The notes under the pieces were generated by a model, which did not search any database, was not told the DNA's origin, and saw only the letters and a list, made by a program, of their open reading frames with translations. From NCBI GenBank assembly GCA_022446905.1, contig JAKVBT010000012.1, positions 4,885 through 68,884 of the forward strand: DNA of 64,000 bases, in the 5' to 3' direction. Source of the stretch: Phycisphaerales bacterium (GTDB taxonomy: Bacteria > Planctomycetota > Phycisphaerae > Phycisphaerales > SM1A02). Below, in pieces: positions 1 to 45,488 of the stretch; the first letter of the stretch is position 1, and each line of letters begins with the position of its first letter. The position numbers and the translations under genes are program-made.

Positions 1-1181
1 CTCAGAGGCGTCACATCCAGCAGCAAGACGTCCTTGACGTCACCCTGAAGCACGCCACCTTGAATGGCAGCACCAATGGCCACGACTTCATCGGGGTTGA
101 TGGATTTATCAAGTTCCGCGGTTCCGAAGATCTGCTTGGCGATCTCCTGCACCTTTGGAATTCTGGTACTGCCACCGACCATCACAACATCACTGACATC
201 ACTGTTGGACAGCCCAGCATCCTTCAGCGCCGTCTTGCACGGCCCTTCCAGTCGCTTGAACAGATCTGCAGCGAGTTCCTCGAACTTTGCCCGAGTCAAC
301 GTGATTTGGAGGTGCTTTGGCCCATTCTGATCTGCTGTGATAAACGGCAGATTGACCGAAGTTTCAAGTTGTTGGGATAGTTCACACTTGGCCTTCTCAG
401 CAGCTTCTTTGAGACGCTGCAAAGCCATGGGATCGTTGCGAATATCAATGCCCTCGGTCTTGCGGAACTCATCCGCAAGGAAGTCGATCAGTGCCTGGTC
501 AAAGTCATCACCGCCAAGGTGGCCATCGCCACTGGTACTGAGGACTTCGAAGACACCGTCGCCGATGTCGAGTACCGAGACATCAAACGTACCGCCACCG
601 AGATCGAAGACCGCGATCTTGGTATTGGTCTTCTTTTCCAGCCCGTAGGCCAGCGCCGCGGCGGTCGGCTCATTAATGATGCGCTCCACCTTGAGACCGG
701 CGATCTCGCCTGCATCCTTGGTGGCTTGCCGCTGGGCATCGTTGAAGTAGGCTGGCACGGTGATGACCGCACTATCAACCTTTTCGCCCAGATAGTCTTC
801 GGCAATCCGCTTCAATTCTCGAAGCAGCATCGCGGAGATCTCTGGCGGGGTGTATTCCTTGTTGTCGCTACCGGCTTGAACCTTGACGAGTTCATCGGCG
901 CCGCCAGTAACAGCGTACGGCACCAGCTTCTCTTCATTTTGGACCTCGTTATGACGGCGGCCCATAAATCGTTTGATCGAGAAGACGGTGTTTTTGGGAT
1001 TCGTCACCTGCTGATGGCGGGCGGGTTCGCCCACAAGCCGATCACCCTTATCGGTGAACGCGATGACACTTGGGGTCGTCCGATTGCCGGACGAGTTAAT
1101 CAGGACCTTGGGCGTGTCGCCTTCCATGACGGCAACGCATGAATTGGTGGTCCCGAGATCGATTCCAATAATCTTGCTCAT
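1..1181 (-). CDS. dnaK: Chaperone DnaK (Hsp70), N-terminal part, truncated by window edge
   Basis: ATP-dependent chaperone that binds unfolded protein with DnaJ and GrpE in the cytosol. The reverse strand reads [20 protein letters not shown], the canonical Hsp70 start, followed by the phosphate-binding motif [10 protein letters not shown], the adenosine motif [10 protein letters not shown] and [10 protein letters not shown]. The visible 393 codons end at the interdomain linker [10 protein letters not shown], so the nucleotide-binding domain is complete and the substrate-binding domain lies outside the window. The ATG at 1179-1181 has GGAAGG about 8 nt upstream. A promoter-like element at 1269-1285 and a leader hairpin at 1226-1258 precede it. 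No dnaJ, grpE or hrcA is visible in the window. Identification is certain; only the 3' end is missing. Confidence 0.97.
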
Positions 1182-38308: not shown

Positions 38309-38521
38309 ACTCGTTCCGCCCAGGGCCAGTATGCGGACTGTACCCCACTAAAGCAGTCCAGACGGGCCATTATCGACCTTAAGGCACCCGTGCGCTCACA
38401 TTCAGTGCCAATCTGGTGTCCGCCTCTCCAGTATCCAAACGCTTTGGCACCCCCATGGGTGCGCGCGGACCGCTGAATTTCCCTGAGATTTCTCAACGCA
38501 CAGCCTCGATATCATGTCGTG

Positions 38522-39559
38522 ATGTCCAAGTCGCCCGGTTTGAAGAGCGTGACCCAGCGGCATCCCCGCCCTTTGGGGGGTGACACAGCCCGTGGGCATC
38601 GGCAGGAGGCGATTTTCAGTCTGTCCGATCAAGTGCTTTCGAATACGGCACAGCAGTCCCTACTGCATGGGCGGAAGCCATCGTGGATCAGAGCACCAAT
38701 GCCCGGTGGCGATGCCTATCTCCGAACCAAAGAAACTATTGAGGCCAATCAGCTCCACACCGTCTGCCAGGAAGCTTCCTGCCCCAACATCGGTGAATGC
38801 TGGGCCCGTGGCACCGCCACGATCATGATTTTGGGTGATGTGTGTACTCGATCGTGTGGATTCTGCAATGTCAAAACAGGCAGACCTCCAATGACCGATT
38901 TGGATGAGCCAAGAAGAGTCGCCAACGCACTGTCAGGAACTGACTTGCAGCACATTGTCATCACCTCTGTCGACCGTGATGACCTCCCAGATGGTGGGGC
39001 TGCAATTTGGGCAGAGACAATTGAGCGTGTACACCATGCATGCCCCGGCATGACTGTCGAAGTGTTGACTGGAGACTTTCAAGGCGATCTTGATGCCTTG
39101 CAACTGGTCATGGACGCCAAACCCGAAATCTTGGCCCACAACGTTGAGACCGTTCCTCGCATGCACCCCGCGGTCCGCCCCCAAGCCCGATATGAGCGAT
39201 CGCTGCAGGTTTTGACTCACATCCATGAAGGCGGACTGGTTGCCAAGACCAGCCTGATGGTCGGTATTGGCGAACGAGATGACGAACTCGAAGCGACCAT
39301 TCATGACATCGCAGATGTCAGTAGCACCGACATCTTGACCATCGGTCAATACCTGCAACCCACCCGCAACCACCTCCCGATTCACCGCTGGGTACCCCCA
39401 TCAACCTTTGATCACTGGAAACAGGTTGGCCTCCATGCGGGATTTCGTGTGGTTGAGTCTGGGCCGCTGGTGCGGAGTTCTTACCACGCCGATGCTCAAG
39501 CACGCTTGGCCGAGGTCTCGACCGGACTCGCTGGGCCCCCGACTTCAATGCCCAATTGA
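38522..39559 (+). CDS. lipA: Lipoyl synthase
   Basis: A 345-residue radical-SAM enzyme that inserts two sulfurs into octanoyl groups on lipoyl domains. The auxiliary cluster motif is VCQEASCPNIGECW (CX4CX5C) and the radical-SAM cluster is CTRSCGFCNV (CX3CX2C). KPSWIRAPMPGG, VDRDDLPDGGAAIWAETI, LAHNVETVPRMHPAVRP, and the C-terminal SGPLVRSSYHADAQ (third serine ligand region) all match. The N-terminal 50 residues before KPSWIR are longer than usual and the start is uncertain; ATG at 38522 is chosen over GTG 38519. No lipB is seen nearby. Confidence 0.95.
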   Translation: MSKSPGLKSVTQRHPRPLGGDTARGHRQEAIFSLSDQVLSNTAQQSLLHGRKPSWIRAPMPGGDAYLRTKETIEANQLHTVCQEASCPNIGECWARGTATIMILGDVCTRSCGFCNVKTGRPPMTDLDEPRRVANALSGTDLQHIVITSVDRDDLPDGGAAIWAETIERVHHACPGMTVEVLTGDFQGDLDALQLVMDAKPEILAHNVETVPRMHPAVRPQARYERSLQVLTHIHEGGLVAKTSLMVGIGERDDELEATIHDIADVSSTDILTIGQYLQPTRNHLPIHRWVPPSTFDHWKQVGLHAGFRVVESGPLVRSSYHADAQARLAEVSTGLAGPPTSMPN

Positions 39560-39840: not shown

Positions 39841-41487
39841 ATGCCCCCAAACGCCTTGCCCAAACCGACTGACCAGTCTGAATCCCCAGTCCCGCCCACG
39901 AGCATTGCTCCGCTGGAGACGTGGAAGGACCGGTTTTTCTCATTCCGAGCGCTCGCCCTGATTCTGATTGCCATTGGGGCTGCAGCCCTCACAGGCTTGG
40001 TAGCGCTCTACTTTCGGCAGGCCGACATTTACGGCTCAGACATGTTTCTGCAGCTGCACGGCATGGACACGATTCTGGGGGTATCCCTTCCTGGAGGCAC
40101 TGGAGTCTGGTTGTCTGCGGCGCTAGTCATCGTGGCCATGGTGGCGATCATCGTCCTGCGCGACACATTCTTCCCGGGAACCGAAGGGACCGGCATCCCA
40201 CAAGCCATTGCCTGCTTGAAAGTGCCCGACTCTGGGTTTCGCAAGTACATGCTGTCGATCCGGATCGCGATTGGCAAAATCATCCTGCTCACCATGGGTC
40301 TGTTTGGAGGCATGACCATTGGCCGCGAGGGTCCCTCTGTGCATGTTGGGGCCTGCCTCATGTACCTGGTCACCAAAGTCCGCCGTTTCCCTGATCATCT
40401 CGTGCAACGCGGGCTCATTCTTGCAGGGGGTGGTGCAGGTATTGCAGCAGCCTTTAACGCGCCCATTGCCGGAATGATCTTTGCCTTCGAAGAGATCGGA
40501 AGGTCATTTGAGAAGAACAACGCAGCCACCATTGTCCGCACGGTGCTCATCGCATCATTGGTGGTCATTGCGAGCCTTGGCTGGGACTACCTGTTCTACG
40601 GGCAGGTCACTCATGAGTTTGGCTTTGAACCACTGCACTGGCTCTGCGCCGCGATCATCGGCGTCATCGGTGGGTTCTTGGGTGGTTTTTTTGCACTCTT
40701 GGTAGTCCGTGGTACGCCCATCGTGACACGCTGCCTCAGACGTGCACGCTGGCTGACGGCAGCAGGACTCGGCTTAGCACTGGCCATCACTGGCATCCTG
40801 TCACAGGGACAAAGCTATGGCAGTGGTTACCCCCAAGCGCGGGCCATCCTGATCTACCGGGACACTGATTACTACCAGACCTTAGGGGTATCCCACGACG
40901 CCGACCAAGAGGCGATTCGCATGGCCTATGAAAATCTGGCCCATGCACAGACACTGCTGGATGACAAAGGTCACGTGATCGAGCGAACGCTTGAAATCGA
41001 AGGTGCGTATAAGACACTCAGCGATCCAAATGAACGAGCCTATTACGACCGGTGGGTCGTCGATCAGGGGGACTACCCATGGTGGTATGCCCCTGCGAAG
41101 GCAACGGGCTCCTTTTTCAGCCTGATCAGCGGCATTCCCGGGGGCTTGTTCGACCCCAGCCTCTCAGTTGGCGCTGGCCTAGGCGATATCTGCGCGGACG
41201 TCTGCCATGACTTCTTTGGCGGCATTCGGCCACAGTTTGTCATTCTTTTATTCATGGTGGCCTATTTTGCAGGAGTCGTTCAGAGCCCGATTACGGTCTT
41301 TGTGATCATGATTGAAATGACCGACGCACGGTACGCGACGTTGCCGCTGATGATGACTGCCATCATCGCGTATGAATGCTCATCGCTGGTCTGCAAAACC
41401 GCGATCTATGAAGCATTAGCTGAGATCTTCCTCGGGAATGTGAAGAAGCGTGCACAAGCCAAGGGCGAACAGGTGCCAAGTGGGTAG
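39841..41487 (+). CDS. ClC-family chloride channel/transporter with inserted J-like domain
   Basis: A 548-residue polytopic membrane protein. ClC selectivity motifs are intact: GTGIPQA (116-120), [10 protein letters not shown] with gating Glu163, [11 protein letters not shown] (435-443, the GxFxP motif) and a tyrosine at 498 in DARYATLP. Between [10 protein letters not shown] (to 336) and [10 protein letters not shown] (424), where other ClC proteins carry one or two short helices, there is a soluble segment [20 protein letters not shown] ... [16 protein letters not shown] (343-405) that matches a DnaJ J-domain apart from lacking HPD. No CBS domains follow. The sequence is continuous, with no frameshift or stop, so the insertion is genuine. 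Transport mode (channel or proton exchanger) is open. Confidence 0.92.
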
Positions 41488-41539: not shown

Positions 41540-41556
41540 GGGCTTGCAAATTGCGC
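41540..41556 (+). promoter_or_regulatory. Possible sigma-54-like promoter of the sigma factor gene
   Basis: GGGCTTGCAAATTGCGC contains GG, ten bases, then GC, and a TTGCG box, resembling the chaperone element at 1269-1285 and 44277-44293 at about 11 of 17 positions. It is 65 nt before the start at 41622. The match is weaker than the three chaperone sites and could be chance. Confidence 0.3.
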
Positions 41557-41559
41557 GAA

Positions 41560-41607
41560 CCTGTGATGGGGGTCATCGCGTAACAGGCTCCGCGGCGTGT
41601 TTGCCGC
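41560..41607 (+). other. Structured 5' leader of the sigma factor gene
   Basis: CCTGTGATG (41560-41568) pairs in two nested parts with CATC (41574-41577) and ACAGG (41583-41587); a second hairpin GCGGC/GCCGC follows (41592-41596 with 41603-41607), ending 14 nt before the start codon. No clear Shine-Dalgarno is seen, so folding near the start may control translation. This is a prediction only. Confidence 0.35.
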
Positions 41608-41621
41608 CCGCAGAGCACCAC

Positions 41622-42464
41622 ATGGTTGAACAAAAGCCCCAATCGGATCTCGATCTGTATTTTCGCGACATCGGTCGAATTGAATTACTTGAACAGGCTG
41701 AAGAACGACGCTTAGCGTGGCGCATCATCAACGATGCATGCCCCTCGGCCAAGTCACACATGATTCAAGCCAACCTTCGCCTGGTTGTCAGCATCGCCAA
41801 GAGGTATGCCGCCCGCGGTGTATCCATGGCTGATTTAATCAACGAGGGCAACTTAGGTCTGATTCGAGCCGTTGAGCGATTCGACCCGGCCCTAGGCCAT
41901 CGATTCTCGACCTATGCCACCTGGTGGATCCGCAAGACGATCAAACAAACGCTGGAAGCAGTTGGTCATCCCATGCACATCCCTGCATACATGCAGCGGC
42001 GGATGGCCGCATGGAGTGAAACTCTACAGAGATTGCAAAACGAACTTGGGCGAGCGCCAACCCCCAAGGAAATGGCGGCAGCCATGCATGTCCCAAGATG
42101 CAAACTTGACCTCATTCACCGCACAATGGCTGCAACACGATCCAACCTCCGTTGGCATGCTGATCGCGAAGGCAGCCTGCAAAGCGCCGCTGGTCATCAC
42201 CCAGATGTTTCCAGTGAACCGGTTGATGCGGATATCGAACAATCTGACGACTTGGCGAAAGTCGCAGAGATACTCCAATCCCTTGATGACATTCAGGCCA
42301 AGGTCGTACGGATGCGGTTTGGCTTAGATGGCCAAACGCCACGCACTTTGCATGAAACGAGTCTTGAAGTTGGGCTGACGCGTGAGCGCGTACGTCAAAT
42401 TGAACATCGCACACTGACACAGATCCGGCACGCTTTCAACTATCGGTCACGCCGAGCGGGCTGA
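41622..42464 (+). CDS. Sigma-70 family RNA polymerase sigma factor (group 2)
   Basis: A 280-residue sigma factor lacking region 1.1. Region 1.2 is [20 protein letters not shown]; region 2 includes [39 protein letters not shown] and [15 protein letters not shown] (core and -10 binding); region 3 begins at [12 protein letters not shown]; region 4 contains [20 protein letters not shown], the -35 helix-turn-helix. The ATG at 41622 is chosen because the frame upstream (from 41544) encodes no sigma-like residues. It is a non-essential-type paralogue of RpoD by size. Lying between a ClC gene and an Hsp20 cluster, it may direct a stress regulon; that is inference. Confidence 0.93.
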
Positions 42465-42472
42465 GTGTGCCG

Positions 42473-43078
42473 TCACGAATCGTGTGCCACTGGCCCGCGA
42501 GCGATTGGCACAGTGGCCGCATTCCACAGTGCCATCAACATCATGCCAAGCATGATCAGTTGAATTCCAAATAGCAGCCCTGGTGCCCACAGCGCATCTG
42601 AGGGATACCACGCCAGCAGCAAAATGCCCAACAGCAGTCCGGCACAACCACTGAGGACTTGCAGTCCCGGGGCAACCGTTGATCGCCAAGGCACACCAAG
42701 AAGATCACTGAGACCACGAAGGAGCGAGAAGATGGCTAACACAAGTGTCATTGCTTGAAGACCTTCAAAAGGCCAGATCAATAGCAGCGCACCCAATATG
42801 AGCAGCAACATCCCAGAGAGCGCTGTAGAACCACGATGCTCGCCACCACCAGCACCACTGCGAATCAAACCCAAGACACCGATCAGGACACACAGAACAC
42901 CGAGAAGAACATCAACCCAGAGACTCGCTACCCCAGCAAAAACAATGGCAAGAAAGCCACCGATCAGGCAGATGATGCCCTCTATGAGAAGAACCTGACG
43001 TCCCTGCCGCAGCAAGTTCAGGACTTCACCAGGGGTCGGGGACATCGGGCTGGTCGCGGAAGATGTTGATTCGGTCAT
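42473..43078 (-). CDS. HdeD/DUF308-like membrane protein
   Basis: A 201-residue membrane protein from the ATG at 43078 (GGAGC about 9 nt upstream). Six hydrophobic helices are visible, arranged in pairs: LLIEGIICLIGGFLAIVFAG, VDVLLGVLCVLIGVLGLIRS, LSGMLLLILGALLLIWPFEG, then three more, with HdeD-type repeats of Gly and Trp-Pro. HdeD in E. coli is linked to acid resistance at high cell density. It ends 8 bp from the convergent sigma factor gene and lies downstream of the Hsp20 genes in the same direction. Confidence 0.82.
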   Translation of the reverse strand: MTESTSSATSPMSPTPGEVLNLLRQGRQVLLIEGIICLIGGFLAIVFAGVASLWVDVLLGVLCVLIGVLGLIRSGAGGGEHRGSTALSGMLLLILGALLLIWPFEGLQAMTLVLAIFSLLRGLSDLLGVPWRSTVAPGLQVLSGCAGLLLGILLLAWYPSDALWAPGLLFGIQLIMLGMMLMALWNAATVPIARGPVAHDS

Positions 43079-43136
43079 GTCATGTGCTCCAAGAACAGTT
43101 CGTATCAACTTGGCATGCTACCGCTGAGAAGAACAA

Positions 43137-43262: not shown

Positions 43263-43673
43263 TCAGGCAGTACGCACCTCAATTCGACGGGCCTTGGCTG
43301 GCACGACCTTGGGCAAGGTCACCTGAAGGACGCCATCGCTGTAGTCAGCAACGATGTCCTCGGCTGAGATTCCCGATCCGATTCTGAAGGATCGGTGGAA
43401 GTCAGCAATACCATATTCCTGATGGCGGACTCGGCCGAGATCGAGATAGCGATCTTCGACAGTTGCATCAATAGTCAGCATTTTGTCTTCGACTGAGATC
43501 TCAATCCCGTCGAGCGATACGCCAGGCATGTCTGCAACGACGAGATACCGGTCTTCGGTCTCATAGACATCAACTGGAGCGCGATAACTCTGTGGTCGTT
43601 TGATGGCAGATTCAGAAACGCATGTGCCAGTCGTGCAGCTATTGATTTGCTTGTTGGTAGTGTTCGTAGTCAT
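43263..43673 (-). CDS. hsp20: Small heat-shock protein Hsp20 (copy 1)
   Basis: A 136-residue sHsp with AGGAG 8 nt before the ATG. The alpha-crystallin domain runs from about residue 30: APVDVYETEDRYLVVADMPG, VSLDGIEISVEDKMLTIDAT, FHRSFRIGSGISAEDIVADY and the characteristic DGVLQVTLPK. The N-terminal arm is short and has two cysteines (SCTTGTC). A C-terminal I-x-I-like tail (RRIEVRTA) may bind neighbouring dimers. It lies 51 bp after copy 2 in the same direction and is probably cotranscribed. Confidence 0.93.
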   Translation of the reverse strand: MTTNTTNKQINSCTTGTCVSESAIKRPQSYRAPVDVYETEDRYLVVADMPGVSLDGIEISVEDKMLTIDATVEDRYLDLGRVRHQEYGIADFHRSFRIGSGISAEDIVADYSDGVLQVTLPKVVPAKARRIEVRTA

Positions 43674-43724
43674 CTCATGTACTCCTGTACAGTTTGATTG
43701 CTTGAGGATGTTTTGGGTTTGATT

Positions 43725-44189
43725 TCACCGTTGAGTGATGGCAACCCGATGCGTGCGGCACAAATCAGACTTGGGAAGTTCGATGGCGAGAATGCCGTTC
43801 TCAAGACTGGCTTCAATGGTTTCATCTCCGACGCCTTCCGGAAGGCGAAATGATCGCTCGAAACGAACCGCTGATCGCTCGCGGCGGATCGTTTCTGCGT
43901 TGTCAATGAGTTCCACGTTGCGGGTGCCTTCGATGGTCAGAATACGATCGGTGATACTGACTTCTAGATCCTTTGCGGAAACGCCTGGCATCTCAGCTTC
44001 AACAATGACAGTGTCATCACGCTCGATAACGTTGATGGCGGGGTTGGCACGCATAGAATCGAGGAAGTGCGGATGGGGAAGCATGGCGCCGAGCGAAGGC
44101 GTGGCGACACGGTCAAAGAGACGATCCAGTTCATTCCGGAGATTGGATACCGCGTTTGATGCGGGTGTGAGCATTGTTCGAGTAGTCAT
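43725..44189 (-). CDS. hsp20: Small heat-shock protein Hsp20 (copy 2)
   Basis: A 154-residue sHsp from the ATG at 44189, with GGAGC 7 nt upstream; the frame continues to 44474 but the extra residues are not protein-like and cover a promoter and terminator. Typical N-terminal arm (LRNELDRLFDRVATPSLGAM) and alpha-crystallin domain: INVIERDDTVIVEAEMPGVS, RILTIEGTRNVE, RFERSFRLPEGVGDETIEAS, ENGILAIELPK, and basic tail. It is preceded by the shared element at 44277-44293. Confidence 0.93.
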   Translation of the reverse strand: MTTRTMLTPASNAVSNLRNELDRLFDRVATPSLGAMLPHPHFLDSMRANPAINVIERDDTVIVEAEMPGVSAKDLEVSITDRILTIEGTRNVELIDNAETIRRERSAVRFERSFRLPEGVGDETIEASLENGILAIELPKSDLCRTHRVAITQR

Positions 44190-44248
44190 GGCTGTGCTCC
44201 TATTGTTCTGCCAGGCTTGGCTGCCTAGCAATTGAATTCTGTGGTCCA

Positions 44249-44264
44249 GGCGGCGCTTGCCGCC
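44249..44264 (-). other. Hairpin at predicted 5' end of hsp20 copy 2 transcript
   Basis: GGCGGC (44249-44254) and GCCGCC (44259-44264) form a 6-bp GC stem with a 4-nt loop, just downstream of the transcription start expected from the element at 44277-44293. dnaK and hsp20 copy 4 have hairpins in the same place. Confidence 0.45.
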
Positions 44265-44276
44265 TCTATCAATGAG

Positions 44277-44293
44277 GTCGCAACTGGCGTGCC
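44277..44293 (-). promoter_or_regulatory. Candidate chaperone promoter element upstream of hsp20 copy 2
   Basis: The coding strand reads GGCACGCCAGTTGCGAC, and with its upstream bases TTGGCACG-N4-TTGC it fits the sigma-54 -24/-12 consensus perfectly (GG-N10-GC). It lies 88 nt before the start codon, identical to the dnaK element. It may be a sigma-54 promoter or the site of another stress regulator. Confidence 0.65.
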
Positions 44294-44405
44294 AACAGCA
44301 ATGTGTGCTGATTCGCTTCCCTAACCGACTTGAGTCAACCTTCGACTGCCACATGCAACAACTGGGTGCCAGCTTGGCAAGTCGCGTCAAGCCACTGAAC
44401 TGCAC

Positions 44406-44444
44406 AAAAAGGGCGCCGGGACGGAAGAGCCCGTCCCGACGCCC
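44406..44444 (-). terminator. Intrinsic terminator after hsp20 copy 3
   Basis: On the minus strand GGGCGTCGGGACGG and CCGTCCCGGCGCCC form a 14-bp GC stem with one mismatch and a short loop, followed at once by TTTTTGTG. It lies 33 nt after the stop of the 44478-45488 gene. This is the clearest rho-independent terminator in the window and separates the sHsp cluster into two transcription units. Confidence 0.85.
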
Positions 44445-44477
44445 GGCGGTTGCCCACCGAAGGATTCTGTTCATGCA

Positions 44478-45488
44478 TCATGCTGCTTGGCAGACTGTCA
44501 ATGCATCTGCAATGGACATCTTGGGAAGCACTAGTTTGAGGATCCCACCAGCCATGCTGGCGGAGATATCACGCACATCGATGTCCTGACCGACGTTGAA
44601 TTCTCGTCGCCAGATCTTGTTAAAGGACTTTTCGCGAAGCAAGGATCGCTTACTTCCGGCATAGAAACCAGATCGTGAGCAGACGGCTTCGATGATGAGT
44701 TTGCCATCCTGAATGGTCACATCAACATCTTCACTGACGGCTCCTGGGACTTCAGCCTCGAGGATGTAGGTGCCGCCATCATCAAAGATGTCGACCTTCA
44801 TTGGGGCCACCTCACTCGCAGGTGCATTGCCGAGCATGGCGGAGCTATAGGTTCCCAAACCATCCATTGGGCTGTTGACCTGTGTAGCAAACAGGCCAGT
44901 TTGCATGCCGGAGAACTCACTTCCGGCGATCCCGGAGACGCTGCCGCTGATCGTGTTGAACGCTTGCAGGTTGTTGAAGAGGGAGTTGATGGCCACCACA
45001 TTCAAGATTGGCAGGCCGATGATCTGCAGTTGCTGACGAATCAGAGTCGGGTTGACCAGTGCCTGAGCAGCCCACTGACCGGCCAGATGCAGGTTGCGCT
45101 GTGCGACGATGAGCAGGGCCTTGGCCAGGATCATGTCCTGCATGGCGATCTTGATGAACTTCTGAGTCGTCCATTGGCAGGAACCAGCGATTCGATTGAG
45201 TTTGGTGACGAAAATCGGATCGATGGAGTTCAATTTTGACACGGCCTGTGTCAGCGTCGGGTCGATGGCATCAAACTGATTGAACATTGGGGTGGAGAAC
45301 TGTCCATAGGTGGTGTCTGCACCGGACCAGATGTCGCTTCCAGCAAAGCAGTTGGTGGTCGGACTCACGCCAGTTTGAGCGTCCAGCCCGAAGCTGCCAT
45401 TGCGGCTGTAGCCGTTGCGGCTGAAGCCTTTGGTTTCTGTATAGACGGTGCGATCGATGTTGTTTTTGACCTGTACTTTGATTGACAT
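44478..45488 (-). CDS. Hsp20-domain protein with a long novel N-terminal region (copy 3)
   Basis: A 336-residue protein, over twice the size of a normal sHsp. Residues about 228-325 are an alpha-crystallin domain (MKVDIFDDGGTYILEAEVPG, VDVTIQDGKLIIEAVCSR, SFNKIWRREFNVGQDIDVRD, AGGILKLVLPK). Residues 1-225 match nothing I recognise: an Asn/Gly/Thr-rich start (FSRNGYSRNGSFGLD), then an amphipathic or hydrophobic helical part (IAMQDMILAKALLIVAQRNL; IIGLPILNVVAINSLFNNL) and a Ser/Gly-rich linker. No signal peptide is evident. AAGGAA precedes the ATG. It lies 30 bp after copy 4 and is followed by a terminator. Confidence 0.85.
   Translation of the reverse strand: MSIKVQVKNNIDRTVYTETKGFSRNGYSRNGSFGLDAQTGVSPTTNCFAGSDIWSGADTTYGQFSTPMFNQFDAIDPTLTQAVSKLNSIDPIFVTKLNRIAGSCQWTTQKFIKIAMQDMILAKALLIVAQRNLHLAGQWAAQALVNPTLIRQQLQIIGLPILNVVAINSLFNNLQAFNTISGSVSGIAGSEFSGMQTGLFATQVNSPMDGLGTYSSAMLGNAPASEVAPMKVDIFDDGGTYILEAEVPGAVSEDVDVTIQDGKLIIEAVCSRSGFYAGSKRSLLREKSFNKIWRREFNVGQDIDVRDISASMAGGILKLVLPKMSIADALTVCQAA

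Follow-up and report, generated by a model that had tools for sequence, protein, structure and literature searches.

The ClC gene and its surroundings

The window analysed here is a stretch of 64,000 nucleotides from a contig of a Phycisphaerales bacterium. Its features of interest, a gene for a ClC-family anion transporter with a J-like domain inside it and a group of conserved neighbours, are listed in Table 1.

Table 1. Coordinates of the ClC gene, its internal features and its conserved neighbours in the window.
Feature	Position	Strand	Basis
Lipoyl synthase, conserved neighbour	38519..39559	+	Pfam Radical_SAM, LIAS_N; kept in relatives
Gene of the ClC-family anion transporter, including the J-like domain	39841..41487	+	548 aa; Pfam PF00654; CLC-ec1 alignment
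GTGIP motif, residues 116-120	40186..40200	+	Sequence; invariant in ortholog alignment A1
GREGP motif with gating glutamate, residues 161-165	40321..40335	+	Sequence; invariant in alignment A1
Helix L, residues 330-339, upstream border of insert	40828..40857	+	AF2 helix order A-R; GSGYPQA motif
J-like domain, residues 343-405, four predicted helices (344-348, 356-369, 381-394, 396-405)	40867..41055	+	Pfam, AF2, structural alignment
TLL at the place of HPD, residues 371-373 (L372 invariant)	40951..40959	+	Alignments
Helix M, residues 416-429, downstream border of insert	41086..41127	+	AF2; PWHY/PWWY start in common with J-less orthologues
GLFDP motif, start of helix N, residues 435-439	41143..41157	+	Sequence; invariant in alignment A1
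Sigma-70 family factor, conserved neighbour	41544..42464	+	Best NCBIfam RpoS/RpoD, below cut-offs
DUF308 membrane protein, conserved neighbour	42473..43108	-	Pfam PF03729; kept in relatives
Three HSP20 small heat-shock protein genes, conserved neighbours	43263..45488	-	Pfam PF00011; kept in relatives

The ClC protein matches Voltage_CLC (PF00654) over residues 101-513 with an E value of 2.3e-71. When a profile of 13 orthologues was compared with the solved CLCs, the best match was 3nd0 (E 2.5e-22), and structural alignment of the whole-protein model with CLC-ec1 (1ots_A) gave a Z score of 35.3 and an rmsd of 3.5 over 409 residues. The three ClC motifs are intact and the frame is open, as an earlier note on this DNA had read from its letters, and the pore tyrosine, Y523, is likewise invariant in alignment A1. 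The protein thus belongs to the CLC family by sequence profile, fold, the GxGxP, GREGP and GxFxP motifs and the pore tyrosine. With the CLC Cl-/H+ exchangers CLC-ec1 and cyanobacterial 3nd0, it shares the fold, the helix order from A to R, the GxGIP, GREGP and GxFxP motifs, the gating glutamate, the EE pair and the pore tyrosine, and its residues E163 and E217/E218 are compatible with an exchanger. Unlike these proteins, it has a J-like domain in the L-M loop. NCBIfam's ClC and DnaJ models hit both parts as well, though with scores under their full-protein cut-offs, and no C-terminal CBS domain was matched by Pfam.

The sigma factor gene lies directly 3′ of the ClC gene on the same strand, and the pairing is kept in the J-carriers examined, except in an outlier genome, G286. 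The DUF308 protein is presumably HdeD-like. The third HSP20 gene (44478-45488) encodes an N-terminal part of about 230 residues ahead of the HSP20 domain. The genome has one clear DnaK; its gene (G000:C4:4269-6056) overlaps the start of the window, at window positions 1-1172 on the minus strand.

A predicted J-domain fold and the features it has lost

The earlier note had described residues 343-405 as J-domain-like, at exactly positions 40867-41055, and the Pfam search agrees: DnaJ (PF00226) matches residues 343-403 with 36.6 bits, above the cut-off of 27.8, and over the full profile (1-63 of 63). A 108-residue piece searched alone against Pfam gave DnaJ with an E value of 1.3e-10 and no other family above cut-off. 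Each of the 13 aligned orthologues has matches to the ClC and the DnaJ families, and the profile made from 13 orthologues matches, over the insert only, Thermus DnaJ2 (E 1.2e-11).

AlphaFold2 was run on 13 sequences without templates. The whole-protein model has a pLDDT of 73.9 and a pTM of 0.75, and block means of pLDDT are 77-91 over residues 341-400 and 72 at 401-410. By our assignment, the modelled helices follow the CLC order A to R, and the four J helices fall between L and M; two single-residue bridges flank the loop at the place of HPD. The isolated insert aligns best with a J-domain chain of Tetrahymena complex I (Z 10.6, 66 residues, 2.5 Å) and then with many J-domains, which Foldseek also returns. 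The models agree with the sequence profiles. A J-domain fold is therefore predicted for the insert, both alone and in context, which is the outcome of the structure prediction that the earlier note had asked for; family profile and fold alike place the insert among J-domains.

The HPD tripeptide is absent from all 18 inserts (0/13 in those counted) but is present in 20/20 of the ordinary J-domains of the phylum that were compared. TLL stands in its place in the window protein, as the earlier note had seen. The mean net charge of helix II is -1.1 in the inserts versus +2.2 in the ordinary J-domains, and that of the whole domain is -7.3 versus -0.8. The inserts do not have the basic Hsp70-binding face of helix II: its basic residues are lost, as is the phenylalanine of KFK, and 13/13 inserts have E in place of the lysine of 'KR'. 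Fold-core columns are kept, e.g., D1, Y3, A12, A20, Y21, A51, L55, R61, Y64, and D65. E398, W405, and L372 are invariant in the inserts and lie outside the usual J-domain core. Replacement of the H or the D of HPD abolishes Hsp70 stimulation in every system tested (review, PMC8215388). Judged from these alignments, the inserts have lost the Hsp70 determinants.

The insert thus has in common with the J-domains of DnaJ and CbpA (Thermus DnaJ2, 4j80; E. coli DnaJ) the four-helix fold and core residues. Unlike them, it is acidic, lacks HPD and a basic helix II, sits inside a transporter and is expected outside the cytoplasm. It has the properties of the J-like class, defined as a J-fold without HPD (PMC9407819). 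The NdhU/CRRL protein of chloroplast NDH, where a J-like protein is a subunit (PMC9407819), and Pam16 likewise have an HPD-less J-like fold and belong to, or are bound to, a membrane complex; against the NDH chain 9grx_U, the insert gives a Z score of 8.3 and an rmsd of 3.8 over 81 residues. NdhU/CRRL and Pam16 are, however, separate organelle proteins, whereas the insert lies within a bacterial ion transporter. The earlier note had called the architecture unusual, and in the open-licence literature we too found no paper describing a J-domain in a ClC.

One ancient insertion, kept under purifying selection

The insert is found at the same position in 18 genomes, which belong, apart from one outlier, to three genera within a single family of planctomycetes (Phycisphaerales); the carriers are a group of marine bacteria. 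In a profile search of 181 genomes of the window's family, 17 proved to encode the complete protein, insert included. All 9 genomes assigned to the window's genus have kept the insert, and it is also present in genera g61 and g50. Other ClCs of the family match the profile as separate halves, with nothing between profile positions of about 330 and 402. The matches in L061 and L064 (genomes G100 and G099) show one in-frame TGA each, though their reading frames stay open over 606 and 539 aa; the TGA probably sits at the edge of the match.

The outlier, G286 (locus L112), comes from another family of the phylum and is the sole carrier outside the window's family in the searches made. Its gene is without the lipA/sigma/HSP20 neighbourhood, and the insert is absent from five other genomes of its family; a transfer or a mis-binned contig is possible. 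With a profile of the insert plus flanks, evenly drawn samples were searched: 397 genomes of the class gave no carrier outside the family, and 392 of the phylum gave G286 alone. A search of plasmids returned nothing beyond 67 bases matching a chloride channel gene of Octadecabacter. The profile searches covered family, class and phylum, together with one contig scan with short exact peptide patterns, and the insert may occur more widely than in the family and G286.

A tree built from the ClC core, with the insert left out, splits the 18 carriers from all J-less sequences with a support of 0.997. The J-less orthologues of g5 and g8 occupy the same syntenic locus, beside lipA and the sigma factor, DUF308 and HSP20 genes. 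It follows from these shared neighbours that the comparison is between true orthologues, and that the neighbourhood is older than the insert. The J-less proteins have a short linker where the carriers have about 65-70 more residues. The earlier note had taken the J-like segment to replace a region of the ClC; since the J-less orthologues hold an entire ClC, it is instead an insertion, added in place of the short linker. No clean loss of the insert was seen among the ClCs of the carrier clade. The carriers are one clade, which descends from one ancient insertion. A 66-column J-domain tree groups the inserts (0.969) and does not resolve the donor.

In the pairs with computable dS among the ten closest, the dN/dS of the insert is 0.07-0.31 and that of the core is 0.02-0.07 (Nei-Gojobori); these ratios are rough, as dS is saturated or infinite in several cases. 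The insert is under purifying selection. It nevertheless changes much faster than the ClC core, with a mean pairwise identity of 47% versus 78%.

Side of the membrane and possible role

The established topology of CLCs assigns each loop to the cytosolic or the non-cytosolic side. In the group of the window's ClC, the loops that are cytosolic in CLCs are mostly rich in K and R and the others are poor: there are about 3 K/R per loop in D-E, F-G, H-I, and J-K, and 0-0.8 in B-C, I-J, K-L, and N-O. The L-M linker of the J-less orthologues has 0.2 per sequence. The L-M loop of ClC-5 is on the extracellular/luminal side (PMC11962092). From the L-M position and the positive-inside pattern, the insert should therefore be periplasmic, away from DnaK, and not on the cytosolic face where the earlier note had expected it. 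To our knowledge, the periplasm has neither Hsp70 nor an ATP pool. The earlier note would have given up its J-domain reading if the topology came out as outside. An outside position would remove the Hsp70 part of that reading, but the J-fold itself stands.

We suggest the following course of events. A J-domain would have been inserted once, in the ancestor of these planctomycetes, into the L-M loop of a ClC that already lay within a stress-gene neighbourhood. Placed outside the cytoplasm, far from DnaK and ATP, it would have lost HPD and the Hsp70-binding surface and kept its fold. Given the loss of the residues needed for Hsp70, the insert is probably a reused fold that acts as a cap or regulator. 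We hypothesize that it is a built-in extracytoplasmic cap, which would stabilise the periplasmic face and/or tune the access of ions and protons to the outer vestibule; alternatively, it may bind a periplasmic partner. Mammalian CLCs offer a model of how it might work, in which separate subunits do the same. OSTM1 forms a stabilising cap over CLC-7 on the luminal side (PMC7440919). TMEM9 proteins inhibit ClC-3, -4, and -5, via their carboxy-terminal and not their luminal domain (PMC11962092). Both place an extracytoplasmic part against the luminal side of a CLC, as proposed for the insert, but they are separate animal proteins and not J-domains, so the comparison is one of working only. A cap that is part of the transporter is the simplest reading that joins the facts about OSTM1, TMEM9 and NDH, and we give slightly better than an even chance to an Hsp70-independent J-like module that is built into the ClC and caps or regulates it on its extracytoplasmic side. 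The 'gating module' of the earlier note is a possible reading and lies close to this explanation.

The main rival is that the insert is a tolerated passenger, a J-domain that landed by accident in a permissive loop, need only fold harmlessly and has no role of its own. The loop can indeed be permissive: the L-M loop of ClC-5 accepts 163 foreign residues and the protein stays functional with reduced current (PMC11962092). The fast evolution of the insert also suits a loosely constrained passenger and counts against a cap. We nevertheless regard a passenger as unlikely, since the insert has been kept throughout the window's genus and in g61 and g50 without a clean loss, its dN/dS is well below 1, and the invariant E398, W405, and L372 are not what the core of a J-domain would demand. 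A chance origin or an artefact of assembly or reading frame, which the derivation of the relatives from metagenome-assembled genomes might suggest, has a negligible probability and is ruled out by the same junctions in 18 assemblies, in proteins about 59-76% identical to that of the window whose frames run unbroken through the insert.

The conserved neighbourhood bears on another reading, in which the insert is an Hsp70-independent periplasmic chaperone or an envelope-stress sensor coupled to the transporter. The HSP20, DUF308 and sigma-70 genes have stayed with the ClC gene through rearrangement, but we set them aside as a sign of a chaperone role, because the J-less loci of g5 and g8 have them too; the outlier G286 carries the gene without them. 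Moreover, we know of no lone J-domain, without client-binding domains, that is a holdase, and we consider this reading improbable. Still far less probable is a cytosolic co-chaperone domain that docks Hsp70, the idea which the earlier note had put first. The clear J-domain homology and the DnaK encoded by the genome speak for it; the absence of HPD from every insert, given what changes of its H or D do to Hsp70 stimulation (PMC8215388), the lost basic side and KFK phenylalanine, the lysine-to-E change in 'KR' and an L-M loop that is extracellular by homology and charge pattern speak against it.

Bacterial CLCs are model transporters and are usually viewed as bare membrane cores, and the regulation of eukaryotic CLCs has been sought in cytosolic CBS domains and in separate β-subunits. 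In the built-in cap reading, the planctomycete protein might be a ClC with a fused extracytoplasmic regulatory subunit, a former Hsp70 J-domain that gates or stabilises an anion transporter, to which we assign a little less than an even chance. If true, the outer face would have gained a fold of the chaperone system, and a J-domain would clearly have become independent of Hsp70. With a pair of orthologues from before and after the insertion at one locus, what the insert does can be tested directly.
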